A stretch of 47,855 nucleotides of DNA. It comes from Elusimicrobiota bacterium. GTDB taxonomy: Bacteria; Elusimicrobiota; Elusimicrobia; UBA1565; UBA9628. The notes under the pieces were generated by a model that worked only from the letters and a program-made list of their open reading frames with translations, ran no database searches and was not told the origin of the DNA. Below, piece after piece: positions 5,075-47,855 of this stretch (positions are counted from its first letter, which is position 1; each line of letters starts with the position of its first letter). The DNA lies in assembly GCA_030696455.1 (NCBI GenBank), contig JAUYSH010000049.1, forward strand, positions 1 to 47,855, read 5' to 3'. Made by a program: the position numbers and the translations under genes.

Positions 5075-5116
5075 ATAGGACCTAGGGCCCACGAGCGGCG
5101 GGGCCAAAGGTCCTAT
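5075..5116 (-). terminator. Hairpin overlapping the stop codon of the 5444-aa gene
   Basis: Bases 5075-5083 pair perfectly with 5108-5116 (9 bp). A 2x2 internal loop and a 5-bp GC stem (86-90 with 101-105, offset 5000) follow, with a 10-nt loop. The TAG stop (5115-5113) lies inside the stem. On the minus strand A-tracts come next and a T6 run appears only about 35 nt later, so this is not a canonical terminator. It may act as a 3' processing or stability stem. Confidence 0.45.
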
Positions 5117-17100: not shown

Positions 17101-20100
17101 CTCGGAGAGGAGCCGGATGCGATGCTCCTGGACCGCCTCGATCTCGGCTTCCAGATGGCCGGCCTGCCCGGTCAGCTCCTTGATCCGCGCCATGACCTGG
17201 TCCATCGGCAGCTTCCATAGGTGCGGGTCGAACGGCGCGCCCGCGGTTGCCTGCTCGGGCGACCTCGCGTCGGTCCGATCGGACGAGGCGGCGATGAGGG
17301 CCTGGGCCGAGAGCATCGCCATCGGGAGATCCTTGGCGCTCTCGCCGAGCGCCGCGCCCTTGGCCATCAAGGTCGCGCGCATCACCGCGTCGGAGATGTC
17401 GAAGCCGGCGAGCGTCGTGAGCTTATGAAGGAGCACGTTGCCCCAGGTGATCGCTCCGCCGAACGGGATCAGGTTCTGGTGAGTGACGCCGTTCTCATCG
17501 ACCCATTCATCCGAGCGCTCCACCGCCGCGCCCACGGCATGAAGCAGCCCGGGTTTGACGCCGAAGGCGGACTCCAACGCGGGGTCTATGACAGCGTCGA
17601 GCTGGGTGGCGTAGGTCATGATGCCTTCGATCTCCGCGCCGACCGTGACCAGGGCGAAGAAGGACTTCAGGTTCGACTTCCAGAACTCCCAGGTGATCGC
17701 CGCGTGCAGCACCGCGACGATCAGCCCCTGGACGGGGAGGCTCGCCAGCGGGGCGTCGTCGCGCAGCTTCGCGATGCGCTCGCGGGCGGCGCGCGGGAAG
17801 GTCAGCAAGGTGGACAGGATCAGCGTATTGAGGAGGGGGCCCAGGACGAGATCCCTGGCCAAGGCCGCGGCCGCCGCCGCGAAGACCGGCGCCAGAGCCT
17901 CGCCCACGAAGGGCACCGCGGCGACGGCGACCGGCAGGCCGTTGAGCACGGCGACTATTGAGGGACCAAGCACCGGTATGGACGTCAGCGCGAAGGAGAG
18001 CGGCAGGACCGGCGCGAACGCGCCGAGCAGGCCCATCGCGATAGCGCTCATGACCGCCAGGGTCAGGCGGCGCGCGATGAAGGTCTTCATGGGTGCGGCG
18101 AACGGGACGATGAACCAGCGGTTGGCCGCCCGATACCAGCCCTTCGCGCGCAGGCCCGCCAAGGCTCCCGCGCCGTCGAACGCGTCCTTGCGCATCGAGG
18201 ACTGGAGCCACTGCTCCGCGAAGTTCTCCCGGTCCGACAAGGCCATGAAGTCCTCGGTCGAGTGGCGGAACTCGAAGGACATCGCCTGGCGGAAGTAGCC
18301 GAAGATGAACATGTCGAAGAGGTGATAGGGGAACCGCACCGCCGCGGTCATGAAGTGCTTGTGGAGCTCGAGGGTCCGCTGGAGCGCGCCCTTCCAGCCG
18401 GGGGCGTAGGTCTTGTTGGCGAGCTCGCGGAAGCTCTTCCAGCCGGAGTATTTCTTCTGATCGTAGCGCTTGAACTGGTCGCGGTTGGCCGCCTGGAGGC
18501 GGTCGTAGACCCCGACCCACGACTCGAGCGGGCTGAACTCGTTGAGGCGGTACTTGACGCCGAGCTCGATGACGCGGTCGCGCTTGATGTTGAACTGACG
18601 CGAGATCTGGTCGATGACCTGGTCGATGCTCTCGATCTTCAGGAGGGGCTTGAGGGAGGGATCGTGGCGCACGCCCTTGACGGTGCGGAAGCCGAAGAAG
18701 TCCTCGTAGATGTGCTTGGGAGCGACGCGGGGTCCGGGGAAGGAGGGCTCTTCGGGCTTGGGCACTTCCGGCTTGGGGATCTCGGGCTGTGGGACCTCGG
18801 GAGCCGGGGCGGCCGGGGGATCGGGATTCGCCGGAGGCCCGCGCTCGTCCGGCAGCTCCGGCTTCGGCAGCGGCGCGGCGGGCTTGGCGACCGAGGCGAC
18901 GGCTGTGCCCCGGCCGCGGGAATCCTTGAACGACCAGGCCGCGTCCCCCTTCCAGGTCGGGATCAGCTCCAGGCGCGCCGGCTTGAGGCCGGGCTTGGCC
19001 GCCTTCAGCGCGGCGTAGGCGACGGCGACGGGCGCCACCTTGGCGAGGCGGGAGTCGTGGAGGGTCGGGATGCGGCGCGCGCCCGGGCGCAGGCGCTGGG
19101 TCTCGATGCGCTTGGTCCACACCGTCAGCTCCTCGCGGCGCGCGTCGGAGCGGAAGATGAAGGTCCAGTGCGAGCGCGGGTCGTCGAGGTTGATCGTCAC
19201 GCGCACGAGGCGGGCGTCGGGGGCCAAAGCCCGGGCCCGCGCCCGCGCCTGAGCCTTCAGGACCAGCAGAGCCTTGCCGTCGGCGCCGCGCGCGTCCTCG
19301 GGCAGTCTCTCGAAGCTCTTCGGCGGCTTGGCGTCGGCCGTCACCGGCAGCGGGGCCGCCTCGAACACCGGCTTGCCGTCGGCGCCGACGAAGGCCGCCC
19401 GGCCGAGGGCGTCGAGGAAGCGGTAGGAGGCCGCGCCGGTCCACGCCGGGTCCACCTCGACGCGCACCGGCCGGAAGCCGCGGTTCGCCTTCTTGAGCGC
19501 CGCGTAGGCGCGATCGAGCGGGCCCATCTCGCCCAGCCGCGTGTCCCAAAGCGTCGGCGCCTTGGTCGGGCGGAAGCCGAGCTTGCGCACCCCGACGCGC
19601 TTCGTCCAGACCGTCAGCTCCTCGTTGCGCTTGTCGGAGCGGAAGATGAAGATCCAATGCGAGCGAGGGTCCTCGAGGTTGATGGCCACGCTGACGAGCC
19701 GGGCGTCGGGCGCCAGGGCCCGCGCCCGGGCCTGCGCCTCGGCCTTCGCGGCGAGCATCGCTGCGCTCGTCGCCTCGCGCGCGTCGGCGGGAAAGCGTTT
19801 CCAACTGCGCGGGAGAGCCGGTTCATCGGCGGCCTCCGCCGAAGCCTGGTCCTGAACGGCCGGGGCTTCCGCGCCCGGAGCCGCGGTCTCGGCGACCGGC
19901 GCAGGAGCCTCGGCGATCGGCGCCGAAGCCTCGGCGATCGAAGCAGGAAAGTCCGCGTCGGGCGCCTCGTCGGCGACGGGAGCGACCGGCTTCGCCGCGC
20001 GCCGGCCGACCCACCAGCTGGCTCCCGAGACGAGGACGTAGGCCGCGTTGAGCGCGGCGTACAGGCCGTACTGGGCGGCCTGCGGGGAGCCGGGCTCGGC

Positions 20101-31055: not shown

Positions 31056-34000
31056 CTACCGGATGCGGTCGAGCGCGGGGTTCTTGCTCTGCGTGGTGGG
31101 CGCGTCGGTGAGGACGTTGGCCTGGCGCAGCAGGTTCTCCTCGACCTCGAGGTTGCGGCGGCCCAGGTTCTCCCGCACGGCCTTGTCCGCGCGCTGCGAG
31201 AGCAGCTGGCCCTCGCCCGAGCCGTCGTTGGCGCGCTTCACGAGGTACTCGTTGAGCGTGCGCCAGTCCTGCCGACCGCCATTGGCCCGGGTGAATTCCT
31301 GGAACGCCGGGTCCTTGCGCATCTCGACGAAGAACGGGTCCTTCTCGAACATGGTGCGGAAGACCGACTCGACCTTCGCGGTCTCGACGTCCATGAGCAA
31401 TGAGAACTTCCGCGGGGCGCGGTTCAAAGTACGTCCCGTATCGATTCGGCCCATGGCCTGGATCATGTGCACCGCCGACATCTCCTCCGGGCCGAGCACG
31501 AGCATCTCGAACTGGGTGTAGCCGCGGAAAGCCCCGGGGCGCGTCGAGCCGCGTTCGCCCTTGAAGTTCAGATCGAGCCCTCGGCCGCCGACGCGCGTGT
31601 CGAGGATGAGGACCTTCACCTGGCCGGTGTTGAGCCCCTCGATGTTCATCTGGCGCAGGACGTTCGCCTCGGGTACATTAAGACGCAGGTACTCGGTGTC
31701 GGCGAACACCTTCGCGATCTCGCTCTGCTTGACGCCGGCCTTCTTCAGCTCGCCCTCGACCTTGCGCAGCGCGCGGGTGTCCGAGACGCTGAGCACGATC
31801 AGGCCGGTGTTCTTCTGCGTCGCGCGGATGCCGTGCAGGAAGGCCTGGGCCTCCGCGCCCGGAACCTCGCTGATCTTGATGACCTGGGGATCGTTGAGGC
31901 TCATGCCCTTCGACGACAGGTACGTTTCGATGCTCTTCTTGGCGCCCGCCGGGATGATGTCGGTCTCGCGCAGCACGACCTGGTCCCGGGTCGCCGCCAG
32001 CTGGGTCTCGAGCGACCTCACGACGCGCGCCAGGCGCTGCTCGGGCGTCGAGACGACCTCGAGCAGCACGTTCTTGGGCATCGCCGAGCCTTCGCCGACG
32101 ACGGAGATCTTGTTGGCGCGCAGATGGGCCTCGAACTTGTTGCCGGAGGTGCCCGACAGCGAGATGAAGTAGGACTTCTTGTTCGTGGTGACGTCCTTGA
32201 TCGTGCTCATCGAGTTGTGGGTGTAGGGCAAGGTCAGGTCCGTGCCGTACTCGAGTTCCCACCAGCGGCGCGAGGCGTTGTCCATGGACTCGAACCATTG
32301 GCCGTTGTGCACGACGTTGAAGCGGCCCGTCTTGTTGTCGACGCGCACGCCGGCGGCGCTGTCGTGGAAGCCCTGGACCATGTTGATGATCTCGGAGCGG
32401 ATGTAGGAGCCGCGGCCCGCCAGGCCCTTGGGCAGGACCATGGAGCCCAGGTACGACCACATCAGGTTGTCGCGCTGATGCGGCGGGATCAGCGGGTCCT
32501 TCGCCAGGGCTTCCAGCATCTTCGCGGCGTGATAGCGGGTCAGGCCCATGCTCGCGGTGGGGACCTCGGGCAGCTTGCCCGTGACCGCCTGCCAGAGGAA
32601 CTTGGGCATGCTGGGCAGGAAGCTCAGGAACCCGGCGCCGTCGATCTGCTTGAGCATCACGTCGGCGGTGTGGAAGCTGTCCGCGCGCAGGAGCTCGAGC
32701 TCGAGCTTGCGCATGCGGTCCATCGCCGCGAAGTACTCCGGGGACTCCTTGGCTCCCGCCAGCGCCTCGAGCTCCGAGCGCGCCTTCACCAGGTCCCCCT
32801 CGAGGCGGCCCGCGGTACCGCCCTTGGGCTTCGCCTCGACCCTGCGGGCGCGGTCGATGAGGAAGTCGGCGCGCTTGAGCGCGGCGCCGGGCTCCATGCC
32901 CTCTCCGCCGGGGACCTCGTAGGGCTTCTCCGTCAGGCGCGGATTCTCGCCGATCGGACGGGCATGCTCCTTCATCTTGCGATAGGCGGCATACATCGCG
33001 CTCTCGTCGCCCGCATAGGCCTCCTGCAGGGCCTTGCGGCGCTCGAGCAGGCGGGTGACCTGGGCGTCCCAGCCGGGCTGGCCCTCGCGCGTCAGCTTGA
33101 CGATGTCGGCGCCGACGTCGTCGAAGCGCTTGATGATCTCGGCGCGCGCCTCCCGCCTCAGCGCCGCCTCCTCTTTTCTCGCGGACTTGAGCTCGGCCTT
33201 GAGGCCGCCCGTCCGTTCGCCCTTGGCCGCCGCGGAGGTGATCTGGGCCTCGAGGCGCCCGGCCTCCGAGGACAGGATGTTGATGCGGCGCAGGGTTCCC
33301 CCGAGGTCGCCCTTGGCCGGCGCGGCGCTCAGCTCGAGCTCGATCGTCCGCAGGCGGCCGCGGGCGGTCGCCCGCTCGGACTCGAGGCCGGAGCGGCTGC
33401 CCGGCTGCGCCTGCGCCATCTCCTCGCTGAGGTTGTTCACGCGGTCGAGCAAGGTCCGGTACTCCTGATGCGCCGCCCGGCGCTGCGCGGTCATGCCGCT
33501 CTCGAGCGTCGCCGCCTCGCGGACGAGCCCCTCGAGCTTCGGCGTGGATCTGACGGCGCCGAGGTTCGTTTCGAGCTTGCGGATCTCCGCCTTCGAGGTC
33601 GTCCGGCCGGCCTCGAGCTTGGTCAGCCGCGCCTCGAGGATCTCGGCGGGACGGCCCGAGGCCTTCGCGGTCTTGATCGACGCCTGCGTCGCCTCGATGA
33701 TCTGGTCGAGCCTCACCGCGCGTCCGGTCTCCGCGCGATAAGCCTTCACGACGGCCGCGTCGCCCGCGCCGAGGGACTTCAGGAGCTGATCGAGCCTGCC
33801 TTCGACGACGGTCCGCCGCGCCGCGGACTCGGGCGTCGCCAACTTCTCGAGGCGGACGGACTCGCGCATGAGCTGGCCGAGCTTGGAGTTCACCGTCAGG
33901 CGCTCCGCCGGCACCTGGCCCGAGCGGATGGCGGAGATCTGCGCATCCACGCTGATCAGGCGCGCGGAGGCGTCCACGCCGTCGAAGCGCTCGATCATCG

Positions 34001-37000
34001 TCTTCTCGACGCGCGCGAACTCGAGCTGCTCGCGCAGGAGCGTCGCGCGCCGCCCGGACGACGCGCCGCCCGACGCCTCGGCGGTGGCGATCTCCTGGGT
34101 CAGGCGCTCGATCTTGGCCTCGAGCGCCACGCGGGCCTTGCGCGCCTCGGCCGGCAGGCGGTTGAGGCCCTCGAGCGTGTTGGTCAGGTTCATCAGGCGA
34201 TTCTGGCTCAGGAAGGCCGTTTCCATCTCGGCGGCGCGCTGCGCCCGGATCGCGGGGTTGGACGCCGGCCGCTCGGCCAGGGCCTCCGTCATACGGTTGA
34301 GGCCGGAAAGGATGGTGCTCGCCGCCTCGGCTTCCGCCGCGGGCAGCCCGCCGCCCTCGATGAGGCGGCGCAGCGAGCCCATGCCCGTTTCGATGGACTT
34401 CTCGGCCAGGGCGATCTCGGCGGCGCCCTTCGCGCGCCTGAGCTGGCCGACGGCTTGAAGCACGTCGTCGGCGGCGACCTTGATCTTCCCGAGGCGGCCC
34501 TTCTCGATGTGGGCCTCTGAAAGCCCCGACGTCACCTTCTGGATGCGCTGCGCCTGGACCTCGGCGGCCTCGACGCGGATCGTGTTGAGGCGGCCCATGC
34601 CCCAGGAGAGCCCCGCGTTGCTCTCCATGATCGCGGTGGTCTGGCCGTTGAGGCGCGTGACGCGGCCGGACACCATGCCGATCGTGAGGGCGGGCTGCTG
34701 GCCGGCGGCGTCCATCTCGTCCTGCAGGAGCAGGTACTCCTCGACCTTGTTGAGGCCCTTGGACTTGCCCTCGGCGATCATCGTCTTGAGGCCTTCGTAG
34801 GTCTCGAATTTGACCGTGGAGCCGAGCTTGTTGAAGGCGAGGAAGTCGAACTCCGCCTGCGCCTGGAGCTTGGTGTTGAAGGTGAGGAACATGACCTTGC
34901 GGCCGGTCGCGGCCGCCTCGGCCTCCAGGTACGGGAGCAGGCCTTCATACGCCAGCAAGGTCTTGCCGAGGCTGGTGGGCGCCTTGACGAACAGCTGGAC
35001 ATGCTTGCCCTCGCGCCCGGAGCTGAGGATGCCCATGTGCAGCCCCTCGCGATCGAGGTTCCGGATCGACGACACCATGTCCTGAAGCGCGACGCTCTCC
35101 TTCGGCGTCAGCTCGCCCGTCTTCTCGGTGAGGCGCGTCTCGAGCCTCTCGATGAGCGTGGACATGCCCGTCGCCTCGAGCTTCGCCATCTCCTTCACCG
35201 CGTCCTTCGACTTCATCGCCGTTTCCGTCGCCGTTTCGCGGCTCTTCACCCAGGCCATGACGTCGGCCTCGACGCCGTCCACGGCGCTGGTCATCTTCTT
35301 GCTGCCCTTGTGCTCCGCGCGCATGTCCTTGAAGATCCCTTCGCTCGTCGATTTGACGAACTTGGCGTGACTGCCCTCGCCGAGGAAGGACTGCATCAGG
35401 CGCACGAACTGCTTGGGGCGCCAGGACGGGATCGCGCCGCCCTTGGCGTCGCGGACCACCCAGGCCGAGTTATTGACCGACGTCAGGGACGACTCGAGGG
35501 CGGCGCGCTCGGAAGGCCCGAGCAGATTCGGGGCTTGCTCCATCCTCACCTTCAGATCCCGCTGCAGGCGCTCGATGAGCACCGAGAGCTTGGTCTCCTT
35601 CGCGGCCGCCGGTCCGTCGGCGGGCTGGCCGTTGCGGCCGCTGGCCCACTTATCGACCTCCTTGCTGTAATTGTCGACCAGGCGCAGCATCTCCGGGCGC
35701 TCCGCGTACTCGATGCGCAGGGCCTCGAAGATCACGTCGGACTTCGACTTGACGATCTCCGTCCGGTTGAAGCTGTTGAAGCGCTTGTCGCCGGTGATGA
35801 TGTAGTCGTAGAGGGCGGTGAGGGCCTTGGCCTCCTTGGGCGACAGCTGGCCCGCCTGGAGCTTGGCCTCCGCGTTCGCCCGCAAGGTCATCGTGAGCTC
35901 GGCGTAGGTCGGCTTGCCCTTGCTCGGGGCCGTCTCCCAGGCGAGGACCATCTCGATGGCCTCCTTCTGAGCCGCGTCAAGCTTCGGGGAGCTGTTCGGC
36001 AGGGCCACCACCGCGGCGCGCAGGACCTTGCCGGCCTCGCCGATCGGGAGGTTCGCCTGCAGGTGGTCCTTGAGCACCTCGCGGACCTTGGCGCTCACGT
36101 TCGGCTGCAGCGTGCGGCCCAGGTTGACCTCGGCGCGGTAGAGGGCCTTGGCGATCTCGATCTGGATCTCGGGGGTGATCTTGCCCCAGCCCTTGACCGT
36201 GCCGCCCGGCTTCATGCTCATGGCCTCCATGGCCCGCCCCGACTGCGCGACCAGGCCCTCCGTGGCGACCTCGTAGGAGACCTTCTGGACTTCCTCGGTG
36301 ACGTGCAAAGTCCGGAAGGTGTCCTTGCCGGCCACCATGTCGCGCACGGCCATCAGCTCGAGCGGGTTGACCTCGCCTCCCTCCCGGGCGAGGCGCTGGA
36401 CCTCCTTGAGCTGGCCCGCCTCCTTGGCCTGCTTCGTCACGATCCACTCCGCCACCGGCTTGCGGCCGAAGAAGCGCGCCTCGAACAGGCGCTGGGACAC
36501 GGGCGGCTTGACCGGCGTGAGCTTCAAGGTGGCGCCCTCGGCGGCGTTGGCGTACTCCTTCGTGCGCCCGGCGGCGTCGTACTGCCGCATGCCCTCCCGG
36601 GTCTGCATGTACGGCCCGGCGTCGCGGGCCCCGTGCGCGGCGTGCGTCGGCAGCAGCAGCCAGGCGGGGGATTCGAGCCAGGCGTGGCCGACCTGGTTGA
36701 TGCGCTTCATGCGGCGCTCGACGTCTTCCTCGGGATGATTGATCACGCCGAAGAACGGGACGGCGATCGGTATGTTGGTATCGTACCAGTCCGCGTACTT
36801 TTGGCCGAGGAACCCCGCGGCCTGGCTGAACAGGACATACTTGGAGACGTTGTCGGCCATGCTCAGGCCGAAGGCGAGGGCGGGCTTGCCCGTGTATTTC
36901 GGAGCCGACGCCAGCCGCTCGAGCAGGCCCATGCGGCCCGAAGCCGCCGCCGCCTCCATGCCCGCCTTGCCGTTGGTCACCACCCGCACGCCGTGCGACA

Positions 37001-39419
37001 ACGAGCCGACGACGCCGCGCGTGCCGATGACGTCCATGGCCCCGGCGAGGCGCGTGCCGCCGTAGATCGTCGACGGCAGGCCGATGTAGCCGAGCAGGGG
37101 ATGGAAGGACTCGTTGGCCCAGATCGCCCCGCCTTTGAAGCCCATCGCGGCGGCCTTACCGACACCGTCCCAGTCCTCGGAGAACATCGAATGCCCGGGC
37201 TCGATGGCCTGCCAGCCTCCGATGTTGACCCCGCCGACCTTGGCGGCCGCCATGTCCCAGAGGTGGGTGCCGACCGTGAACCCGGCCGAGATGCCGCCGG
37301 CCAGGCCCGTGAAGGTCGCCTGGCGCGTGGCCACGCTGAGAGCGCGCGCGCCGCTGGCCACCGCGTAGTTGGCGATCCAGGTCTCTCCGGCCACCGCCCG
37401 CACCCGAGCGACGTCGGGCTCCAGTGACTCGAGGCGGGCCGCGCTGTGCTTGGCGATCTCGCCGACGACGATGAGCGAGCGGCCGGCGGCGCGTACCGCG
37501 AGGCCCTGCACGCCGCCCATCGCCTTGCCCGCCTGGATCATCGAGCCGCCGACGCCGCTGAGCCGGCCGACGCCGTTGAGCGCCGAGCGCGCCATGGGAG
37601 CCAGCAGCGCGATGCTGACGGCGTAAGTCACGAACGTCGACGCCGCGTCGAGCGACTTATTGGTCTCCGCCACCGCGCCGATGCGGTCGTGCGCGATCCT
37701 CAAGGAGGAACTGATGCGCAGGGCGTCGTTGACCTTCGCGGGATCCGCGCCGGCCGTGCCGCTCATGGAGTACTGGGCCGCATCGGGATTCATCGCCATG
37801 ATCCGCTGGCGCGCCTGGGCGAAGTCTCCCTTGGCGACCAGGGCCGAGAGCTCCGTATAGGTCCGCGCCATCGAGGCCGACTTCCCGTCGCCCTCGATCG
37901 CCCGCATGTTCTCCGCATAGTCCCTTCCCCACGGCGTCAGCTTGTAGCCTCCGCGCAGGGTGCTGGAGACGCCGTTGAAGAGGTGGCCGGGGAGGTTGTA
38001 CCAGTCGCGGGACTTCAGGGTCTGGCCTTTGGCGAGGAACGCGGTCGACGGAGCCTCGAGGTAGATCGAGTAGTCCACCGAGAGGTCGCCGAGCTCCTTC
38101 TGCGTCGAGGCGAGCGCCGCCTGCACCGAGTCCAGGCTGCTCGCGTAGGCCGCGTTGTTGAGCGCCCGGCGCGTCTTGTCGAGGATACCGCGCAGCTCGT
38201 CGAGCCGCTCTTTCATCCGCACCCCCTGGCCCTTGTAGGCGCTCTTCTGGTCGGCGGACATGTCCGACTCGTCGATCATCTTCATGATCGCCTGAGCGTC
38301 GGGGGAGGTCGGATCGACGCGCTCGCGCTGGTTCTTGACGTGGAACATCTGGGTCTCGAGCACGGTCAGGCTGAGCCAGCGCAGCGCGTTCTGCTCGTTG
38401 AGCGACATCGTCGCCACCTGGGAGTCGGTGATGGTGTTGGACGCCTTGAAGCGGTGCATGTCGGTCTCGAAGCGCTGGACCGCGAACCGGGCCCCCTCCA
38501 GATAAGCGCGCCGCTGCGTGAACTTCGCCTCGACGATGTCGAAAACGCTGTAGGTCTCGCCGCGGTGGTCGTAGGTCTTCGCCTTGGCCTGGCGGATCAG
38601 ATCCTCCTCGAGGCCCTTCTCGTTGAACCACATGTCGGTCGGATACTGCTTGCCCAGCAGCTCCGCGATCGCGATCATGCGGTCGACGCGCGTCGCCTTG
38701 ATGTACTCGGTCTCCTGGTTTTTCAGGCGCCAGTAGCTGTACTCCAACATCTCGTAGTTGTAGCGCCCGGTCTCCGGGATGGCGGCCACCTCGGCCGGCC
38801 GGTTCAGGTTCATCTGCCGCTGGGTCTTCTGCAGCTCGCGGTTGTAGGTCGTGACCTGGTTCTTCGTCATGCGGAACGCGAGGCCCTTCGCGTCCCAGAA
38901 CTCGAAGCCGTCGTTCACCTCGACCTGAAGATAAGCGTTCGCCTTCGGCGGGTCGGCGACCGCCGCGCCCGTCATCAGCGCCTCGCGCAGCGCGCCGATG
39001 CGGAAGGACTCCTCGACGCTGCCCGCCTGCGCCGTGTCCAGGTCACCGAACTTCTCGACGAACAGCTTCATGGCGCGCGCGGAGCCGTCCTGGCGCGCCT
39101 GGGTGAATTCGCCGTTGCCGCGCAGCCGCTCGAAGACCGGCTTCATCGACTCGACCTCCTCGGCCGCGTTGTAGCGCTTCTTCAGCGAGAGGTACATCAT
39201 GCGCCCGATCGGGGTGAGCTCCTTATCGCTGCCGAAGTAGGTCTTGAGCGGGTCGGCGTCGTCCTTGTAGACGCCCAGCGAGCGCAGGTATTTCATCGCC
39301 TCCGCGGGGGTCGGATCAGCGGCGCCGCCGGCGCCGGCCCAGGCGGACGCGGGCCATTGCGCCGCGAGCAAAGAGGCGCTGACGAGAACGGCGGCGGCAC
39401 GACGCGCGAGAGGTTTCAT
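31056..39419 (-). CDS. Giant 2787-aa exported protein with SecA-like superfamily 2 ATPase motifs
   Basis: It begins with a Sec-type signal peptide (1-29, ending AWAG after a basic n-region). Residues 35-1430 are mostly helical, with weak hydrophobic stretches at about 600-870. An ATPase core follows. Motif I is APTSLGKT (about 1485), then [16 protein letters not shown], which parallels the TVNDYLAxRD step of SecA. Motif II is QDEMDA (about 1568). A coiled-coil insertion runs from about 1640 to 2154. The second half has LSGTSGN (about 2424, like the SecA GMTGT), GGRGLDLNF (about 2614) and [10 protein letters not shown] (about 2657). The motif order matches SecA, but the protein is three times longer and apparently exported. 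The ATP source outside the cytoplasm is a problem; the signal may instead be a retained anchor. Function unknown. Confidence 0.8.
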
Positions 39420-39439: not shown

Positions 39440-39468
39440 AGTGTAGCAGAGGGACGCCCTCCTGTCAG
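39440..39468 (-). promoter_or_regulatory. Promoter of the 2787-aa gene
   Basis: CTGACA (39468-39463) and TACACT (39445-39440) are separated by 17 nt. The -10 ends 20 nt before the ATG. The same -10 sequence and spacing occur upstream of the 601-aa gene. Confidence 0.6.
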
Positions 39469-39484
39469 GGCCCATAGGCCCACT

Positions 39485-39533
39485 AAAAAGGAAGGCCCGG
39501 GACCCAGGCCGTATAGGCCTTAGGTCCCGGGCC
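39485..39533 (-). terminator. Strong intrinsic terminator after the 866-aa secreted protein gene
   Basis: GGCCCGGGACC (39494-39504) pairs perfectly with GGTCCCGGGCC (39523-39533). An inner AGGCC/GGCCT stem extends it. On the minus strand the hairpin is followed by TTCCTTTTTAG. It ends the upstream cluster and separates it from the 2787-aa gene. Confidence 0.85.
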
Positions 39534-39543
39534 GTTCACCGGC

Positions 39544-42144
39544 TCAGAACTTGTCTTCCTCGCAGGCCTTAAGCGCCGCGGGGCGGCCCGACAAGCCCCA
39601 CCAGAGCACCGGGCCGACGCAGTTCGCGGCGCCCTTTTTAGCGTTCGGCGCGCTGACCTGCTTGTTCTGGAACACGGCCAGAACGCCCCGCGCCTTCGTC
39701 GAGCCCGGGACGAACTTGTAGCCCGAGGCCACGCGGTCGTCCACGGCCGGGCCATCCGCCAGGCCGTGCAGCACGAGGCTGGCGCCCGGATGGGGGCTGG
39801 TCGAGTTGAAGACCTCGAACGGCTTCATCTGGAACACCTTCGCCTCCGTGGGGTCCTTCGCCTTGTACCGGAACGTCAGGTAGTATTTCTTATCCGTATC
39901 CTTGGCGATCGGGTCCTCCGCCTCGTACAGGGCGATCCCCTTCGACTCGGCGTCCTTCAAGTCGCCGATCAGCTTCGCATTGCGCTTATCGGCCGTGTCG
40001 AATTCAGGCTTGAACTTCTCGGGCACCGAGCTCACCGACCCGTCCATCACGTTGGCCGGCCCGCTGAGGCTCGAGTAGGGGTTGGGCGTGGCGTCCGGCG
40101 CGGCCCCGGGGTACGTCACCTCGGGCCAGACAATGAACGATCCGCCTCCCGACTGGACGTGCACGGTCAGCACGCCGTCGGCGAAGCCGCCCGTCACATA
40201 GTAAGGCTTGTTTCCCAAAGCGGCCTGGATGCGCCTGGGCACCTCGGTCAGAGCCGCGGCAGGCACGCCCGTTCCCATGTAGCGCCCGAGGGCGTCGACG
40301 TACGCTTTCGCGTCAGTGAATTTCGAGCCGTTCCTGTCCGCGACGAAGCCGGCCAGGGCGAACCCGCCGTCCTTGCCCTGCTTGAGCAGGTCGAGATACT
40401 GCACCTGCTTGTCGAACTCCAGGACCAGATAATGGTCGAAGAACCGGACGCGAACGAACCGATACGCCGGAGCGGTCGCGGTGCCGGGGATGCTCTTGTA
40501 CTCCAGCTGCTGATCGGGAGTCGCCGCGGTCTTCGGAACGATGACGATCGCGTGCGGCCCCTTTCTCTCATCGTTGCAGGCGACGACCCCGTACCGGTCG
40601 TGCAGGTCCCGCGACAGATCCTTCATGTCGGCGTCGTTGATCTTGCATTTCCCGCTGGCGATGTCCCCGGCGAGGAAGGTGCGCACGAACTCGCGGAAGG
40701 TATAGCCTCCCTCGGGAACCGGCCCGGGGTTGGGACCGCCGGGATTAGCGCCGCCGGGCCCGGTCCCGTCGCCGGTCGTCGGCGTCGCGGGCGGCGCGGG
40801 CGGATCGCCCGCGCCTTCCTTGACCTCCCAGAGCCCGAGGTCCTCGTTGAACTCGAGATGAAACTCATCCTTGCCGACCTTGCCCAGGTGAGGCTTGCCG
40901 GGCAGGTTCTGATTGCGGCCGTTCGGTCCGCGCTTGCCCACCTCGGCGAACAGCGTCGGCTCGAGCAAGGTGGGATCCGCCGAACCGCCGTCGATGAGCT
41001 TCTTCGAGAAAAACGCCACTCCGCTGCGCGCGCCGCCCTGGGGCAGCACGTAGAACTCCTGCGCGCCCACCTTCACGATATTGTTCATCGTGGACGCCTG
41101 CTCGGCCCGCTTCTCGAAGAGTTTCTTGACCGAGGTCTCCAACGGCGCACCACCCTCGCCCGGACGAGAAAGAATGATCGTGCGGTCGCCGTTCGCATCC
41201 GGCCGGCCGAACTTCAAATGGTATTTCTTGTGGCCGGGCGTTCGATCGTCGAGGATGAAGGACTGATCGCCCTTACCCAGCGGGAAGCGCCGGCCGAAGA
41301 GGTCCGGGGGCTTGGCATTGACATCGGTGATATCGAAGACCCCGACCTCATTGACGATCACGCCATCGACCCACTTCGAGTAGATCTTCAAAGAGATCGT
41401 GCGCGAATGCTCGTCCTTGGCCCCGTGAACGTTACCGACCTTCGCGCCGTCCACATAGAGATCATTGAGCGTGTACTGCTGCTGGGCGGCTCCCCCGACT
41501 CCCGTTCGGGTCGTGCTGGGCGGATCCACCTGGGTGTTGTTGTTGCCTTCGACGCTCGTCACGGTCTCGCCCTGCGTGCGCGGGTCCAGCGCCGACCAGG
41601 ACTTGCCCACGGCGGCGTTCAGAAAAGCGGTGACCTGGTCCTTATAAGTCGTCCCGCCGATCTGGCTCTTCCCGGCCCAATCCCCCTCATCCGGATCGGA
41701 AAGCAAGAACCGGACCTTGCCGAGCCACTTCATGCCGGGCTTGAACGTCGCGGGCGCCCACGAAGGCGCCGCCGCCCCGGGGCCGATCACGAAATAAAAC
41801 ACCGCGACGTCCGCGGGATCCCCCTGCTTGGCGCCCCACTCGTTGGCGACGACGCCGATAAGCCGGCGCGTCTCGGCGTCGACGTCCCCGACGAAGCTCT
41901 TCTTGGCGGGGCTGCTCTTGAGGGAGAATTCCTCGAGCAAGAACTCGGAGATGCGCTTGCCCGCGTCCACGCGCGCCTCGGGTTTTTCCTTCAGAATCTT
42001 GGTCAAGGCATCGACGGAGCTCGTCTCCGCTTCCTCGATGACGACGCCGGCGGGCTTGCTGCCGTCAGCGGCGAGCGCCCGCAGGGGGAAGACCCCGACG
42101 GACGCGATCGCCAAGACGGCCATGATGGGATTAAGGGGTTTCAT
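39544..42144 (-). CDS. Secreted 866-aa protein of unknown function
   Basis: It has a signal peptide (about 1-25, ending ALAA) and no other membrane segment. The N-terminal half alternates beta strands with Lys/Asp-rich turns (for example TISLKIYSKWVDGVIVNEVGVF near 250). A Pro/Gly-rich hinge (about 440-475) separates it from a second beta-rich half. There are few cysteines, with one pair near the very end (NCVG and KACEEDKF). A GGAG ribosome-binding site precedes the ATG by a good distance. It follows three Gly-rich membrane-anchored proteins and precedes the giant ATPase, with a terminator between. I do not recognise a family; two similar sensor- or adhesin-like halves are possible but not shown. 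Confidence 0.75.
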   Translation of the reverse strand: MKPLNPIMAVLAIASVGVFPLRALAADGSKPAGVVIEEAETSSVDALTKILKEKPEARVDAGKRISEFLLEEFSLKSSPAKKSFVGDVDAETRRLIGVVANEWGAKQGDPADVAVFYFVIGPGAAAPSWAPATFKPGMKWLGKVRFLLSDPDEGDWAGKSQIGGTTYKDQVTAFLNAAVGKSWSALDPRTQGETVTSVEGNNNTQVDPPSTTRTGVGGAAQQQYTLNDLYVDGAKVGNVHGAKDEHSRTISLKIYSKWVDGVIVNEVGVFDITDVNAKPPDLFGRRFPLGKGDQSFILDDRTPGHKKYHLKFGRPDANGDRTIILSRPGEGGAPLETSVKKLFEKRAEQASTMNNIVKVGAQEFYVLPQGGARSGVAFFSKKLIDGGSADPTLLEPTLFAEVGKRGPNGRNQNLPGKPHLGKVGKDEFHLEFNEDLGLWEVKEGAGDPPAPPATPTTGDGTGPGGANPGGPNPGPVPEGGYTFREFVRTFLAGDIASGKCKINDADMKDLSRDLHDRYGVVACNDERKGPHAIVIVPKTAATPDQQLEYKSIPGTATAPAYRFVRVRFFDHYLVLEFDKQVQYLDLLKQGKDGGFALAGFVADRNGSKFTDAKAYVDALGRYMGTGVPAAALTEVPRRIQAALGNKPYYVTGGFADGVLTVHVQSGGGSFIVWPEVTYPGAAPDATPNPYSSLSGPANVMDGSVSSVPEKFKPEFDTADKRNAKLIGDLKDAESKGIALYEAEDPIAKDTDKKYYLTFRYKAKDPTEAKVFQMKPFEVFNSTSPHPGASLVLHGLADGPAVDDRVASGYKFVPGSTKARGVLAVFQNKQVSAPNAKKGAANCVGPVLWWGLSGRPAALKACEEDKF

Positions 42145-42220: not shown

Positions 42221-44644
42221 CTACTTCGCCGCCACCGGCGCCGCAGACGCCGAACCAATCGCTATCGTATTGATTGGCGTCACCACTTCCGCCGTCTTAT
42301 CTTTCAACGCCTTCTGCGAGGCCTGAACATCAGTATTTGCCTTCGTGACCGCCGGCTCAACCAGCTTCAAGGCTGCCGCCGCATCATCGTCAGCTTTCTT
42401 CTTGGCATCCCCAGTTGCGATCTTGGCGGCTTCGGCGGTCTCGTAAGCCTTATTGACCGCCCCTTTAAGATCCTCTACGGACTGACGGGCAGTGGGCTGC
42501 GCTTCGACCGCTCCCGAGGTCGCCTTATCGATCTCAGGTTCGTATTTCGTCTTCTTCTCGGCTGCCGTGGTCAATCCAGCCAAAGCTTTATTCAGATTAA
42601 TCTGATCTGACAAAGCTCCGGCGGGAGCAGTCTTACCCACCAGCGGCTCAAAAGACGTGATGCCCGCCTCCAAACGTTCGATATTTGAATTCAATGTCCC
42701 GATTAACGTCTTCGTTTCACCCTGAGCCGCATCGACTTGACCCACCGCCGTATCCACATCACCTTCGGCGGAGACATCAATTCCACGAGGCGGCCTCACA
42801 GCTGTATACGTTTGACCCAAAGCGGTATTCGCAGACACGATCTGGGCTTTGGCTTTTGCAATTTTGGCCACGGCCGCGTCGCGGGCCGCCCTCGCCTTAT
42901 CAGCTTCGGCAATTTCAACCTTATCCGCGCCAAATATGATCAGGCTTGCGGCGTCTTTGGCTGCCGCTTCACCGCCCGCCGCGATCAGATTAGCTTTCGC
43001 CTCGCTGAGCAGCTCCGATACCGTTTTCTCTGGCGGCGTGGAACCACACGCGGTAGAGCCTCCCCTGACCAGCTGATTCTGGGCATACTCCGTATTTTTC
43101 GCCTTGGGCCCAAGCGTCTCCGTATAGAAGGTTGCCAGCTTGGCCTGCCTATCATCCACGACAGCCACAGCGGTCCCGGCGGCCGCCGGGGTTGCGGCCG
43201 GCGCGCTGACTTTCGCGGGGATCTTGCCGCAAACGGTGCTGAGGCCCGCGCTGCTAGGCATCGGGGCCACTCGCGGCTGACCGTCCGTAGCGGGGGCCTC
43301 GGTCGACGGATCTTTTTTTCCATCTCCCGGCTTTCCGGTGGGGTAGCATTTCGTTCCAGTCTCATTGCCCTGGCCGCCGTTCAAATATTCCGAGTATGTG
43401 CCATCTCCATTAGGTTTAAAACATTTGCCGGCCGACTCGCCCGGCTTCACCGTTCCGCACATAGACAGCTTGGCGGCACTCGTGCCTATACCGCCGCACA
43501 TGAGTTCCGAGTCGGGAGCCGGGCACCCCATGCCCAAGCCCTTGCACATGCCCCAGGTGGTCAGCCCCTCGCCGAGCTTCCCCGCCGAGGCCTTCAGGAC
43601 ATCGTTGCGGATGCCGTACAGCAGGAGCTCCGGGTCCTTGAGCTTGCGCTTCTCGAACTCGAGTTTGAGCTCCTCTTCCTGGCGCTGCTTGGCCCGGAGG
43701 AACGCGAGCGACTCGCCCACACTCTTGCTGCCGCCGGGGCCGGTGCCGCTGCCCGGCTTGTCGTTGGCGCCCGCGCCGCCCTGGCCGCCGCCGCCGAAGC
43801 CCGACCCGCCGGTGGGAATCTGCTCGTTGGCCGCCGCGTTCAGGCCGGCCGCGGCGCTGCCCGCGCGGTTGAACGCGTCTCCGGCGTTGGCGCCGGCCTT
43901 CTTCGTATTGTCGAGCCCCGTCCCGCCCGTGGGGCTGCGGCTGCCCGCCACGCCCTTGAAGCCGGGGGTGTTGCGGACCAGGCGAAGGCCGCTGTTGCCG
44001 CCGCCGCCCACGCTTCCTGCCGCCGGGCCGACGGGCATGCTGCCGCCCGACGCGCTGCTGCCGCCCGACGCCACGCCCAGGCCGCGCAGGCCCGAGCCGC
44101 CGAGAGCGACCTTCGGAATCGGGAGCGGAGCCTTCTTGACCGCCGCCGAGGCCGCGCGCGACGCCGCGCCCTTGAGCGCGTCTTTATAATCCTCATCGCT
44201 GCGGGAAGGAGCCGTGGGCGGAGGCGCCGCCGGAGCCGCCGAGCCCGCCGGAGGCTGCTGCATGCCGCCGGGGCCCATCACGAGCGAGCTGGGGTCGCGC
44301 ACGTTCAGGGGCGTGATGATGTCGCCGCTCCCGCCGATGGCTCCGCCCGGGGCCATGCCGCCGGTCTCGTAGGGGCTGCTGCCGCTGCCGAAGAAGCTGC
44401 CGCTCGGCCCGCCCTTGCCCCAGCCCTGCTGGAGCGAGGCGTCGCCGTTCTCGGGAGCCATCATGAAGTGCTCGGCCAGAGGGGCCATGAACAAGGTGCC
44501 CAGGCCGGCCAGGATGAAGGCCAGGTCCTTCTTCTTGAACTGCTTGAGCCGATCGAAGAGGGTCAAGCCGGCGCCCATGCCCTTGATCTTCACCTGGGGC
44601 TTCTGAGCGTCCTTCAGAGTCGGGATCTTCGGTTGCTGATCCAT
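42221..44644 (-). CDS. Membrane-anchored Gly-rich protein with helical C-terminal half, unknown function
   Basis: The start at 44644 (807 aa) has AGGAG at the right distance and lies 10 nt after the upstream stop; a longer frame into that gene is a shadow. A short cytosolic N-terminus (KIPTLKDAQKPQVKIKG) precedes one membrane helix (about 32-50). Residues 60-320 are Gly/Ser/Ala-rich. A Cys-rich segment (about 375-440) contains GMGCPAPDSELMCGG and KCFKPNG. The last 300 residues form Ala/Lys-rich helices with heptad-like spacing. The DNA of the last third (42221 to about 43480) is visibly richer in A+T than its surroundings. No family recognised. Confidence 0.75.
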   Translation of the reverse strand: MDQQPKIPTLKDAQKPQVKIKGMGAGLTLFDRLKQFKKKDLAFILAGLGTLFMAPLAEHFMMAPENGDASLQQGWGKGGPSGSFFGSGSSPYETGGMAPGGAIGGSGDIITPLNVRDPSSLVMGPGGMQQPPAGSAAPAAPPPTAPSRSDEDYKDALKGAASRAASAAVKKAPLPIPKVALGGSGLRGLGVASGGSSASGGSMPVGPAAGSVGGGGNSGLRLVRNTPGFKGVAGSRSPTGGTGLDNTKKAGANAGDAFNRAGSAAAGLNAAANEQIPTGGSGFGGGGQGGAGANDKPGSGTGPGGSKSVGESLAFLRAKQRQEEELKLEFEKRKLKDPELLLYGIRNDVLKASAGKLGEGLTTWGMCKGLGMGCPAPDSELMCGGIGTSAAKLSMCGTVKPGESAGKCFKPNGDGTYSEYLNGGQGNETGTKCYPTGKPGDGKKDPSTEAPATDGQPRVAPMPSSAGLSTVCGKIPAKVSAPAATPAAAGTAVAVVDDRQAKLATFYTETLGPKAKNTEYAQNQLVRGGSTACGSTPPEKTVSELLSEAKANLIAAGGEAAAKDAASLIIFGADKVEIAEADKARAARDAAVAKIAKAKAQIVSANTALGQTYTAVRPPRGIDVSAEGDVDTAVGQVDAAQGETKTLIGTLNSNIERLEAGITSFEPLVGKTAPAGALSDQINLNKALAGLTTAAEKKTKYEPEIDKATSGAVEAQPTARQSVEDLKGAVNKAYETAEAAKIATGDAKKKADDDAAAALKLVEPAVTKANTDVQASQKALKDKTAEVVTPINTIAIGSASAAPVAAK

Positions 44645-44654
44645 ATTAATTCTC

Positions 44655-46460
44655 CTAGTGCGCCGCCGTTTGAATGAATTCTTCGATGTCGTCCAAATTC
44701 GTGATCTTGCAGCCTTCCTCATCGGGCTTGCACCCGTCGTAGGAGCAGGAGCGCTGGCTGCGGCACAGCTTCTTCGAGTAGCTCCGGCACGTGCTGACGA
44801 CCTGATTCTCGCGCCCCGCGCACTTGGTCTTGTACGCGAGCTTGTCCACCAGCGATCGGGACTGGCCCAGGGCCACGCAGCCGTTGGAGCGGTACTGATC
44901 GATGGCGTTCTGCACCGCCTGCTTCGCGTACGGGAGGTCCGCCTTCACCGCCGGGCAGCTGCCGCCCTCGATGTCTCCCTTGTCGTCCATCGTCGACGAC
45001 GTGATGACCCGGTCGGGCCGGCACGTCTCGCCCTCGGCGAGGACGTCCATGCACCCGCTGGCGACCTCATTGTACTCCACCTTCTTGGACTTCTCCTTGC
45101 CGCACTCCGACGCGGAGCACGGATTGCCCCGCGTCAGCGGGCACGCCTTGATGTGATCGCAGCGGACCGCCATGCTCTCGCGGCAAAGCTCCTGCATCTG
45201 ATCGCCCCAAGCCGCGCATTTCTTGATCTTGGACTTGTTCTTCTTGCTGCAGGACATGCCCTGGCCGCAGCCCAGCGCCTCGAATTCATTGCTCAGCTTC
45301 TCCTGCCTCTTGCTCAGCTCGAGCTCCTTGGGGCCGTACTTATCGTCGGCTTCGCGGCACTTCTCCGCGTCCCGGGTCATGTTCTCCGCGTCGCGGATAT
45401 AGTCGTCGGCCATGCCCGAGTCGGGCAGGTTCGGGGTGTCGATGCCGTCGATCTGCGGCGCGGTCAGGATGTCGGTGCGGTCGCCGGAGATCGCGTTGCC
45501 GTCGTACACCGCGCCGGTGTTGACCGACGCGAATTCGCCGGGGCAGTTGGTGCCCGGGGTGCAGTTGGGCGCCACCGAGATCGCCGAGCGTCCGCGCTGG
45601 GAGGCGAGCTGCACGAAGGCGCGCTGGCCGCTGATCGTACGCGTGCCGGCCACGCCTCGGTTCGCGCGGGTGTCGATCGCGGAGGCCCTCGCCTTGGACA
45701 GCCGGCCCTCGGCCCCGCCCTTGATCCGCACGCCCTTTCCGGGCTGCGCCGAGATCCCCTCGAGCCCGCCGGCGACCACGTCGCCGAGCTTGCCGCTCGC
45801 CGCGCCCTTGCCGTTGCCGAAGAAGTTCGCGCCCGCGAACGAGCCGCCGGACAGACCGCCGCCGGCCGCGCCCGAGCCGCCGCCGAACCCGCCCGCGAAA
45901 GCGCTCTTGACCAGGCCCTCGCCCTCGCCGGTGAGATCCTCGTCGGACAAAGCCACGCCCTCACCGTCGGCGGTGTTCCTGGCGTCTTCGGGATTAAGGA
46001 CGCCCTTGACCGCCCCGGGCTTGGGCAGGTTCGCCTCGCCGCCGCCCGCCGCTTCGAGATCTTTGGAGTTCCCTTTGACGAAGCCGAGCGAGCCGGTGCT
46101 GCCCGCGGCGCGCCGGATCGCCTCCGCGTCCGCGCCGCGCATGAACGCCGCCCAGCCCGCCTTCCCGCCGCCTTCCTTGGCCGAGCGGAACGCCGCCAGC
46201 AGGTCGCTGTAGTCGCGCTTGCCGCCGGCCAGCCCCCAACGAGAGGTATCCACGCCCACCTTCCCCGCCATCCACGCCACGCCCGCCGCCACCCGAGCGC
46301 CGCCCGGGAATCGGAGGATGAGGTTGGACGGGCTTATGAACAAGAACGAGGCCAAGGCCACCAGCAGGAGCAGCGCGGTCACCGTCTTGCGTGTCCTGAT
46401 GAAGAGAAGCAACGCCGCCAAAGCGCTCTTTTTCTTGTTCTTTTCAAGGAAAGTTGACAT
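44655..46460 (-). CDS. Membrane-anchored Gly-rich protein with cysteine-rich C-terminal domain
   Basis: This 601-aa protein has a basic N-terminus and one membrane helix (about 28-48). A Gly/Ala-rich middle follows, including GGFGGGSGAAGGG near 195. From about 400 to 595 there are about 19 cysteines (for example GCGQGMSC, CDHIKACPLTRGNPC, CSYDGCKPDEEGC), suggesting a disulphide-stabilised extracytoplasmic domain. A segment near residues 240-295 (AEGRLSK, RANRGVAG, GQRAFVQL, GRSAI) matches one in the neighbouring gene at 46546-47855. It is followed 10 nt later by the 807-aa gene. A TTGACA-17-TACACT promoter lies upstream. Function unknown; a pseudopilus or surface appendage component is one guess without direct support. 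Confidence 0.78.
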   Translation of the reverse strand: MSTFLEKNKKKSALAALLLFIRTRKTVTALLLLVALASFLFISPSNLILRFPGGARVAAGVAWMAGKVGVDTSRWGLAGGKRDYSDLLAAFRSAKEGGGKAGWAAFMRGADAEAIRRAAGSTGSLGFVKGNSKDLEAAGGGEANLPKPGAVKGVLNPEDARNTADGEGVALSDEDLTGEGEGLVKSAFAGGFGGGSGAAGGGLSGGSFAGANFFGNGKGAASGKLGDVVAGGLEGISAQPGKGVRIKGGAEGRLSKARASAIDTRANRGVAGTRTISGQRAFVQLASQRGRSAISVAPNCTPGTNCPGEFASVNTGAVYDGNAISGDRTDILTAPQIDGIDTPNLPDSGMADDYIRDAENMTRDAEKCREADDKYGPKELELSKRQEKLSNEFEALGCGQGMSCSKKNKSKIKKCAAWGDQMQELCRESMAVRCDHIKACPLTRGNPCSASECGKEKSKKVEYNEVASGCMDVLAEGETCRPDRVITSSTMDDKGDIEGGSCPAVKADLPYAKQAVQNAIDQYRSNGCVALGQSRSLVDKLAYKTKCAGRENQVVSTCRSYSKKLCRSQRSCSYDGCKPDEEGCKITNLDDIEEFIQTAAH

Positions 46461-46545: not shown

Positions 46546-47855
46546 TCACGGCTCTTTCCGCTCCAGATTCTCGACTTCTTTGGTTTCGGCATCCTTCTCG
46601 TTCTTGTCCTTGACCTCTTCGACCGCCTGGGTGTTCTCCTCGGTGACCCGGGAGTTCTCGGTCACGGTGTCGGGCGGGTTGCAGTTCTTGGGGTCGGTGC
46701 CTTCGTTATAGGCCTTGTCGATGCAGTACTTGTTGATCTCGTCCTGCTTGGTGTCGCCGGTGCGCGCGGCCAGGCCCTGGCTCATCGAGTCGGCCATGCC
46801 CTTCATCATCTCGGCCATCTGGCTCATCATGACGCTCATGCCGACGAGCATGCCGCCGATGGCGATCAGGATCGCTCCCCACGGCAAACTGGCGGCTCCC
46901 GCAGCCATCAATGCAATACCCACGATCATCAGCATGGCCGCCTTCTTCTTCATATCGCCGGCCTGCTTGGCCATCTCCGCGATCGCGGCGATCATGGCGA
47001 GCGAATTCGGATCCATGCCGACGCCCTCGGGGATGTCCACGTTCGGCGCCGTCACGTCGGGCGCGCCGCCGGGGCCGCTCGGAGTGTCCACGGCTCCGGT
47101 GCCCACGCCCGGGCCGCCTTCGATGTTCGAGCCTCCGGGCGTCGAGCCGTCGAACGCCGTCGCCGCCGATGACCGAGCGCCTTCCGCGGCCGAAGTCCCG
47201 GCGCCGAGAGCCGACATCCCCTTGGCCACCTTCAGCTGGCCGAAAGCCCGGTTTCCCCGCACCTGCTTGCCCGAGCCGCCCGCGACCCGGCGTCCCGTCC
47301 GCGCGTTCTTCGAGGCGGTCAACCGCCCTTTCGCGGCGCCTTTGATAGTGGTCTTCGACAATCCCTCGTTGAACTTCGGGGCCGCGTTGCTGCCGGCGAA
47401 GATGTTCTTGCCGCCGAAGCCGCCGCCGAGGCTCGAGGAGAGCTTGGCGCCGCTCAGGTTGTTCTCGAGGCCGGGGCGGCCGCCGAGGCCGGACGCGTCG
47501 CCGTCGGCGATCTGCTCGGGCATGACCGGCGCCTCCGCCGTCTGCTCCTCGGGAGCCTTCTCCGCCTCGGCCTTCTTGGCCGCGGCCGCCTTGATCGGGT
47601 CGAACATGATCTCGCCCTTGCTGGCGATGTAGCCGGTGCGGTCCACGTCGCCGGAGCGGATCTTCATCGAGGAAGCGATCGCGCCCAGGTCGCCGTAGCC
47701 GCCGGCCCCCGCGCCCCCTCCGTTGAGCATGGCGTAGCCGAACAGGCCCGCGCCCCCGAGGAACATCGCCGCGCCCGCCGCCAGGATCGCCTTGCCCATG
47801 ACCGTCGCCGTCAAGCTCGCGAGCATCGAGGAAAGCCAGCCGCCGCCGGCCGCGT
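46546..47855 (-). CDS. Gly/Ala-rich membrane protein, partial at the window edge
   Basis: The frame is open to base 47855, so the 5' end is probably missing; an ATG at 47826 would give 426 aa but leaves in-frame coding upstream. A hydrophobic helix lies near the N-terminus (AILAAGAAMFLGGAGLFGYA). A Gly/Ser-rich segment follows, then the module AAKGRLTASKNARTGRRVAG plus RGNRAFGQL (47203-47352), shared with the 601-aa neighbour. Two further helices are near 300-345 of the 426-aa form (MLMIVGIALMAAGA, ILIAIGGMLVGMSV). The tail is acidic and Glu/Lys-rich with two cysteines (YCIDKAYN, KNCNPPD). It is probably an inner-membrane partner of the next genes. Function unknown. Confidence 0.72.
   Translation of the reverse strand, partial: AAGGGWLSSMLASLTATVMGKAILAAGAAMFLGGAGLFGYAMLNGGGAGAGGYGDLGAIASSMKIRSGDVDRTGYIASKGEIMFDPIKAAAAKKAEAEKAPEEQTAEAPVMPEQIADGDASGLGGRPGLENNLSGAKLSSSLGGGFGGKNIFAGSNAAPKFNEGLSKTTIKGAAKGRLTASKNARTGRRVAGGSGKQVRGNRAFGQLKVAKGMSALGAGTSAAEGARSSAATAFDGSTPGGSNIEGGPGVGTGAVDTPSGPGGAPDVTAPNVDIPEGVGMDPNSLAMIAAIAEMAKQAGDMKKKAAMLMIVGIALMAAGAASLPWGAILIAIGGMLVGMSVMMSQMAEMMKGMADSMSQGLAARTGDTKQDEINKYCIDKAYNEGTDPKNCNPPDTVTENSRVTEENTQAVEEVKDKNEKDAETKEVENLERKEP

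Follow-up and report, generated by a model that had tools for sequence, protein, structure and literature searches.

SecA, as known so far, is cytosolic and binds SecYEG, and ATP is as a rule confined to cells and is not expected outside the cytoplasm. PTEX HSP101 of Plasmodium is an ATP-driven unfoldase located outside the parasite plasma membrane, and the West-Roberts et al. 2023 preprint is said to report that most giant proteins of Omnitrophota encode divergent SecA-DEAD helicase domains. Here we analyze a protein of 2787 amino acids (aa), called the giant below, that is encoded in a window of 47,855 nucleotides (nt), the entire contig C109 (JAUYSH010000049.1) of an Elusimicrobiota metagenome-assembled genome. 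A preliminary description of this DNA had called it an exported protein with a SecA-like ATPase split by a 900-residue coiled-coil insertion. Our reading, held tentatively and at somewhat less than an even chance, is that the giant may be an exported, ATP-driven motor of translocase type that acts beyond its own cytoplasm.

With SecA the giant shares the order of motifs I, II, III, V and VI, the presence of a domain inserted between motifs II and III, and a similar stretch before motif III. It differs from SecA (PF07517/PF01043/PF21090/PF07516) in being exported, in having no match to these Pfam models and apparently no scaffold, wing or two-helix finger, and in carrying a helical arm where SecA has the cross-linking domain. 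DEAD-box, ResIII and Ski2-type helicases of superfamily 2 (SF2) resemble it in the motifs of nucleotide-binding domain 1 (NBD1) and in general fold class, but are cytosolic and lack the insertion of 450-1170 aa between motifs II and III. Omnitrophota giants are reportedly also envelope-linked and carry a SecA-like SF2 domain, but are much larger and have many transmembrane (TM) helices, whereas HSP101 is an AAA+ protein of the ClpB type rather than an SF2 member and acts in a host-derived vacuole. Giant open reading frames (ORFs) are common in Elusimicrobiota and Omnitrophota, and a part in adhesion or predation has been discussed for their products (PMC12057145, PMC11573180, PMC10066038). The literature searched held no description of the giant family or of the SecA paralogues with signal peptides that are treated below.

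The SF2 motor and its insertion

The giant gene and the parts of its motor are as follows:

31056..39419, minus strand: predicted exported giant with a C-terminal SF2 motor in SecA layout, 2787 aa (ORF and translation; homologues; purifying selection)
34620..35036, minus strand: NBD1, aa 1462-1600, with motifs I, Ia, Ib and II (invariant columns; PF04851 weak here, above cut-off in the homologue L056)
34959..34982, minus strand: motif I or Walker A, APTSLGKT, aa 1480-1487 (translation and alignment)
34710..34724, minus strand: motif II, QDEMD, aa 1566-1570 (translation and alignment)
32553..34619, minus strand: helical insertion, aa 1601-2289, at the position of the SecA preprotein cross-linking domain (length comparison; AlphaFold2 model of L039)
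31260..32552, minus strand: NBD2-side region, aa 2290-2720, with motifs III, V and VI (conservation; profile alignments)
32139..32159, minus strand: motif III, LSGTSGN, aa 2421-2427 (translation and alignment)
31563..31589, minus strand: motif V, GGRGLDLNF, aa 2611-2619 (translation and alignment)
31440..31460, minus strand: motif VI, QAMGRID, aa 2654-2660 (translation and alignment)

Walker A, DExD, motifs III and V and the Q/H..GR motif VI occur in the order expected of SF2, and all motifs named in the preliminary description were found at the places given there, in SecA order. In the alignment of the 21 full-length members of the giant family, G1485, K1486, T1487, D1567, E1568 and D1570 of NBD1 are invariant, as are S2422, T2424, R2613, G2614, D2616, Q2654, G2657 and R2658 of NBD2. 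Walker A reads KTGGGKT in most relatives and APTSLGKT in the sub-clade of the window, which still fits [A/G]xxxxGK[T/S]; GKT or GKS is retained in divergent relatives. The ResIII model PF04851 passes the cut-off in L056, the sole Pfam match above cut-off within the motor family. Since the motifs are invariant, GKT/GKS is kept in the divergent members and PF04851 is found in L056, membership of the giant in the SF2 helicase/translocase superfamily is secure by sequence. An unrestricted profile search of the PDB returned DEAD-box, Brr2/Ski2 and Dicer-type helicases, not SecA.

Compared with its orthologue in genome G016 (80% identical), the giant has a ratio of nonsynonymous to synonymous substitution rates (dN/dS) of 0.39 overall, with the lowest values in the two motor halves (NBD1 0.21, NBD2 0.24) and a value of 0.47 in the insertion; the motor is the most conserved part. 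Because dN/dS is low and 53 of the 147 relatives examined have homologues, the comparative data confirm that the ORF did not arise by chance. All named homologues are from Elusimicrobia. With A1, a profile built on the C-terminal motor half, matches were obtained in 49 of the 235 genomes examined in the class; 46 of these are among the 56 genomes of the window's order and three lie outside it, mostly with one copy per genome, and by these counts the giant is a near-universal, single-copy core gene of one Elusimicrobiota order. Motor-bearing ORFs measure 2.3-6.1 thousand aa (kaa), save for fragments at contig edges and a few truncated ORFs. The remaining sample of the phylum gave one weak match to A1, in an ORF of 4037 aa, and no relatives were found in the viral contigs and phage records searched.

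The preliminary description also considered a repurposed fold. In a dead or structural fold, hydrolysis of nucleoside triphosphates would be lost and the motor would serve as a scaffold. The Walker A of the window's sub-clade, which is no longer of the TGGGKT form, and the general expectation that ATP is lacking outside the cytoplasm are in keeping with such a dead fold. It is nevertheless disfavoured because the catalytic motifs are strictly conserved, their residues being invariant in 21 of 21 full-length members and kept in most of the divergent ones; purifying selection, moreover, is strongest in the motor, and we regard this alternative as quite improbable.

The span from motif II to motif III amounts to 850 aa, of which about 690 (aa 1601-2289) form a lineage-specific helical insertion. 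Its length is 447-1174 aa in the full-length members, as compared with 62-200 aa in compact relatives, and like the domain of SecA it lies between motifs II and III. In the AlphaFold2 model of the homologue L039 the insertion consists entirely of long helices and is the most confident part, with a predicted local distance difference test score (pLDDT) mostly of 70-89. The insertion of the preliminary description is present, though shorter than the 900 residues given there, and its coiled coil is supported only as long helices in the model of a homologue. As it is located where SecA has the preprotein cross-linking domain, a natural reading is that it may act as a clamp or arm.

Signal peptide and compartment

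The N-terminal regions of the giant and the signals preceding its gene are:

39333..39419, minus strand: signal peptide, aa 1-29 (sequence; equivalent N-terminus in every complete homologue)
37650..39332, minus strand: N-terminal domain, aa 30-590, predicted to be extracytoplasmic (follows the signal peptide; paired cysteines in relatives)
36720..37649, minus strand: conserved low-charge, Ala/Gly-rich region, aa 591-900, a candidate membrane-associated belt (charge profile, 21 members)
35037..36719, minus strand: mainly helical linker region, aa 901-1461 (conservation; AlphaFold2 helices of low-to-fair confidence)
39440..39468, minus strand: sigma-70-like promoter CTGACA-N17-TACACT with TG extension (0 expected in shuffled sequences; conserved before orthologues in the genus)
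39494..39510, minus strand: terminator-like hairpin with T-run, between the upstream gene d and the giant (sequence scan)

All 19 homologues with a complete N-terminus start with a signal peptide that is positively charged and hydrophobic, as judged by eye and from hydropathy, so that the Sec signal peptide claimed for the window protein is a family trait, conserved along with its start codon. That codon is an ATG, according to the ORF call and the translation, with the promoter about 20 nt upstream. Since position and sequence of the promoter are kept before the same start codon in genus-mates of the window genome, the start codon, and hence the signal peptide, can be considered well supported. 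The giant probably begins its own transcript, because the terminator-like hairpin separates it from gene d; an operon of the two was considered and rejected, since terminator-like and promoter-like sites between them make a single transcript unlikely.

The signal peptide speaks against a cytosolic location like that of SecA. The giant has no cysteine in 2787 aa, and across the family cysteine makes up 0.021% of the motor region and 0.159% of the N-terminal domain, as compared with about 0.75% in the SecA proper of that lineage. In the N-terminal domain of relatives, cysteines are gained and lost in close pairs (210/230, 284/298 and two at 186, reference positions), implying disulfides there. 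Universal signal peptides, scarcity of cysteine and the paired cysteines of the N-terminal domain are three lines that point to a motor outside the cytoplasm. The compact relatives L057, L058 and L094 have no TM segment between signal peptide and motor; since only the signal peptide precedes the motor in these proteins, it is placed outside.

A stand-alone 540-aa protein of the same genome (L102:4725-6344, plus strand) resembles aa 182-457 of the giant (E 3e-11) and has counterparts in relatives.

A possible extracytoplasmic translocase

In the mechanism that we propose, the giant would be exported via Sec, with its N-terminal domain outside the inner membrane and the Ala/Gly-rich belt of aa 591-900 associated with a membrane. 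The C-terminal part would be an ATP-competent SF2 motor of SecA-type layout, in which the long helical arm takes the place of the preprotein-gripping domain that SecA has between motifs II and III and is used as a clamp or lever. The motor may work as an ATP-driven polypeptide translocase or unfoldase, a nucleic acid being the less likely substrate. We infer the polypeptide substrate, the site of action, which may be the outer envelope or a contacted cell, and the source of ATP.

One form of action in a contacted cell would be that of a delivered effector, the exported giant working in the cytoplasm of a host or prey. Roles in adhesion or predation are discussed for giant proteins on the surface of related bacteria (PMC10066038, PMC12057145), the belt could insert into a foreign membrane, and other giants of the class carry ClpB, PPDK and carboxypeptidase domains. 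We identified, however, no delivery apparatus, receptor domain or toxin domain, and a near-universal single-copy gene of an order is unusual for an effector; we consider this version distinctly unlikely.

Observations on both compartment and kinship weigh against the reading of the giant as an extracytoplasmic translocase. To our knowledge there is no supply of ATP outside the cytoplasm. Cysteine depletion is a weaker marker than it looks, the median cysteine content being 0.41% in ordinary signal-peptide proteins and 0.76% in cytosolic ones; because this difference is moderate, we used depletion as support only. Within aa 591-900 the mean share of charged residues is 14.8% in the 21 members, as compared with 25-31% elsewhere, and the segment aa 596-614 is borderline hydrophobic, reaching TM level in seven of the 21 (L043, L047, L048, L049, L050, L051 and L055); the motor could return to the cytosol through it. 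The giant might then be an envelope-spanning tether with a periplasmic N-terminal domain, a belt with an odd number of passes through the inner membrane, and a motor in the cell's own cytosol. This arrangement would solve the ATP problem, and it suits the low charge and hydrophobic character of the belt across the family as well as the TM-grade members. Yet the family mean hydropathy of the segment is only 1.38, with no clear TM helix in most members, the compact relatives share the motor but have no TM segment between it and the signal peptide, and the motor is poorer in cysteine than the N-terminal domain, which makes the tether unlikely, though less so than the effector.

Structure prediction was uninformative, also as to whether the two halves of the motor form one ATP site, the AlphaFold2 models being built on shallow alignments, with a pLDDT of 60 for the motor of L039 (low in NBD1) and of 57 for aa 1-1200 of the window protein. 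A Foldseek comparison of these poor models with the PDB gave no significant match, a phmmer search of the PDB with the whole giant only a chance match, and the NCBIfam scan no relevant match. Among the Pfam models of SecA, PF07517, PF01043, PF21090 and PF07516 found no match in the window protein or in the motor-family relatives scanned. Only about 127 aa follow motif VI, which leaves no room for the SecA scaffold, wing and two-helix finger; these appear to be absent. In single profile-profile comparisons, with shallow profiles (Neff 2.3-4), NBD1 prefers DEAD-box (2.7e-9) to SecA (7.5e-5), and a pure SecA alignment reaches only 5e-4 against the compact motors.

Accounts of ancestry are compatible with any of the readings above, and one of them is that the motor is a generic SF2 motor of ResIII or DEAD-like type, linked to SecA at superfamily level only, whose insertion arose at the same place independently. 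The single Pfam match above cut-off in the family, the DEAD-box and Ski2/Brr2 matches in the PDB and the alignment of NBD1 are in line with it. The rest of the motor, however, matches a profile of SecA and SecA-like paralogues slightly better (2.4e-6) than DEAD-box (1.2e-5), and the stretch from after the insertion to motif VI is closer to SecA-like paralogues (E 1e-8, 224 columns) than to DEAD-box (7e-5, 166 columns); the insertion, too, sits at the SecA position. The compact, contiguous motors gave a single collinear alignment with the SecA and SecA-like profile from motif I to motif VI (425 columns, probability 96.7, E 4e-10), which stayed between 1e-10 and 2e-9 when the SecA rows were subsampled to similar depth, whereas the DEAD-box profile aligned in two separated pieces (E 2e-7 and 7e-5). 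A generic SF2 origin is a real possibility, if short of a probable one. Of the SecA-like ATPase of the preliminary description, the motif order, the insertion site, the SF2 motor and the layout by profile-profile comparison hold up; the name SecA is not supported as it stands, SecA Pfam models and SecA in the PDB giving no match and the scaffold and wing being missing. We describe the motor as SF2 with SecA-type layout, kinship with SecA being possible but unproven. A canonical SecA was rejected as an identity for the giant; an ordinary SecA gene is present in the same genome (G000:C21).

Exported SecA paralogues, other giants and gene neighbourhood

When the same genomes were searched for SecA, paralogues that carry signal peptides came to light (L099, L226, L096, L097, L100 and L093). 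They resemble the giant in signal peptide, SecA-type motor, few cysteines and origin in the same class, and differ in their recognisable SecA domains, in size (mostly 1.1-1.5 kaa, 5.3 kaa for L093) and, in some, by an M50-like segment and tetratricopeptide repeats (TPRs). L099:1684-4908 (minus strand, 1075 aa) has all four SecA Pfam domains and intact motifs, with cysteines confined to the signal peptide, and L226 (G047:C33) is a SecA paralogue with signal peptide and intact motifs. Both share an Ala/Pro linker and have cysteines almost exclusively in the signal peptide. L096:1532-6091 and L097:2888-7153 (both minus strand) and L100 have a signal peptide, an M50-like HExxH membrane segment and then SecA, and the first two also end in TPRs. 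L093:2161-17925 (plus strand, 5255 aa) combines a signal peptide with SecA_DEAD (208 bits), SecA_PP_bind, P-loop_SecA and DnaJ. Thus, as judged from signal peptides, the export of SecA-type motors is not confined to a single protein family of the lineage.

The same motor lies near the N-terminus of L094 (6078 aa) and L095 (5022 aa), which belong to another family. L094:249-18482 (plus strand) is an exported giant with the SF2 motor and PPDK ATP-binding and PEP-mobile domains. L095:353-15418 (plus strand), likewise an exported giant, has the SF2 motor, an M50 peptidase, a zinc carboxypeptidase M14, a ClpB-type double AAA+ with both Walker A motifs intact, and three cysteines. An ATP/ADP translocase (PF03219) was considered as a source of ATP and is not convincing, its matches being many but weak and mostly partial (21 bits in the giant's own genome). 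Such weak matches occur in many genomes of the order (e.g. G000:C112:22521-22649 and G047:C128:2421-3059) and are a possible lead on ATP supply.

The neighbours of the giant in the window are:

46546..47826, minus strand: gene a, 426-aa anchored Gly-rich protein (conserved order)
44655..46460, minus strand: gene b, 601-aa anchored protein with 21 cysteines, mostly C-terminal (conserved order)
42221..44722, minus strand: gene c, 833-aa membrane-anchored Gly-rich protein (conserved order)
39544..42144, minus strand: gene d, exported 866-aa protein adjoining the giant (beside the giant in the loci of 13 other genomes)
5113..21447, minus strand: gene l, second giant of 5444 aa with signal peptide, several TM segments in clusters and no cysteine

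The gene order a-b-c-d-giant recurs within the order, and the linkage to a cluster of exported or anchored Gly-rich proteins, noted before for the window alone, is thus conserved. Downstream of the giant there is often the second giant, which has no Pfam match, and a Y1-transposase-like gene (21590-22492). The 21-cysteine gene b sits in the same cluster as the cysteine-free giants. In the complete genome CP096137, an ankyrin and caspase-like (Peptidase_C14) protein is encoded upstream of the giant (L134:18353-19528, minus strand).

Taken together, the giant family and the exported SecA paralogues might constitute ATP-using, protein-handling machinery, Elusimicrobiota regularly running SF2/SecA-type ATPases outside their own cytoplasm, a generalization that we hold as unlikely. 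If true, it would imply a supply of ATP in the envelope or inside a partner cell. ATP-driven translocases as a rule face the cytosol; a motor of the giant that works outside the cytoplasm would break with this and raise the question of where the ATP comes from, and the exported SecA paralogues are small proteins that make this question directly testable. Giant proteins of Elusimicrobiota are poorly understood, and this family offers a first point of entry to them that is conserved and single-copy.

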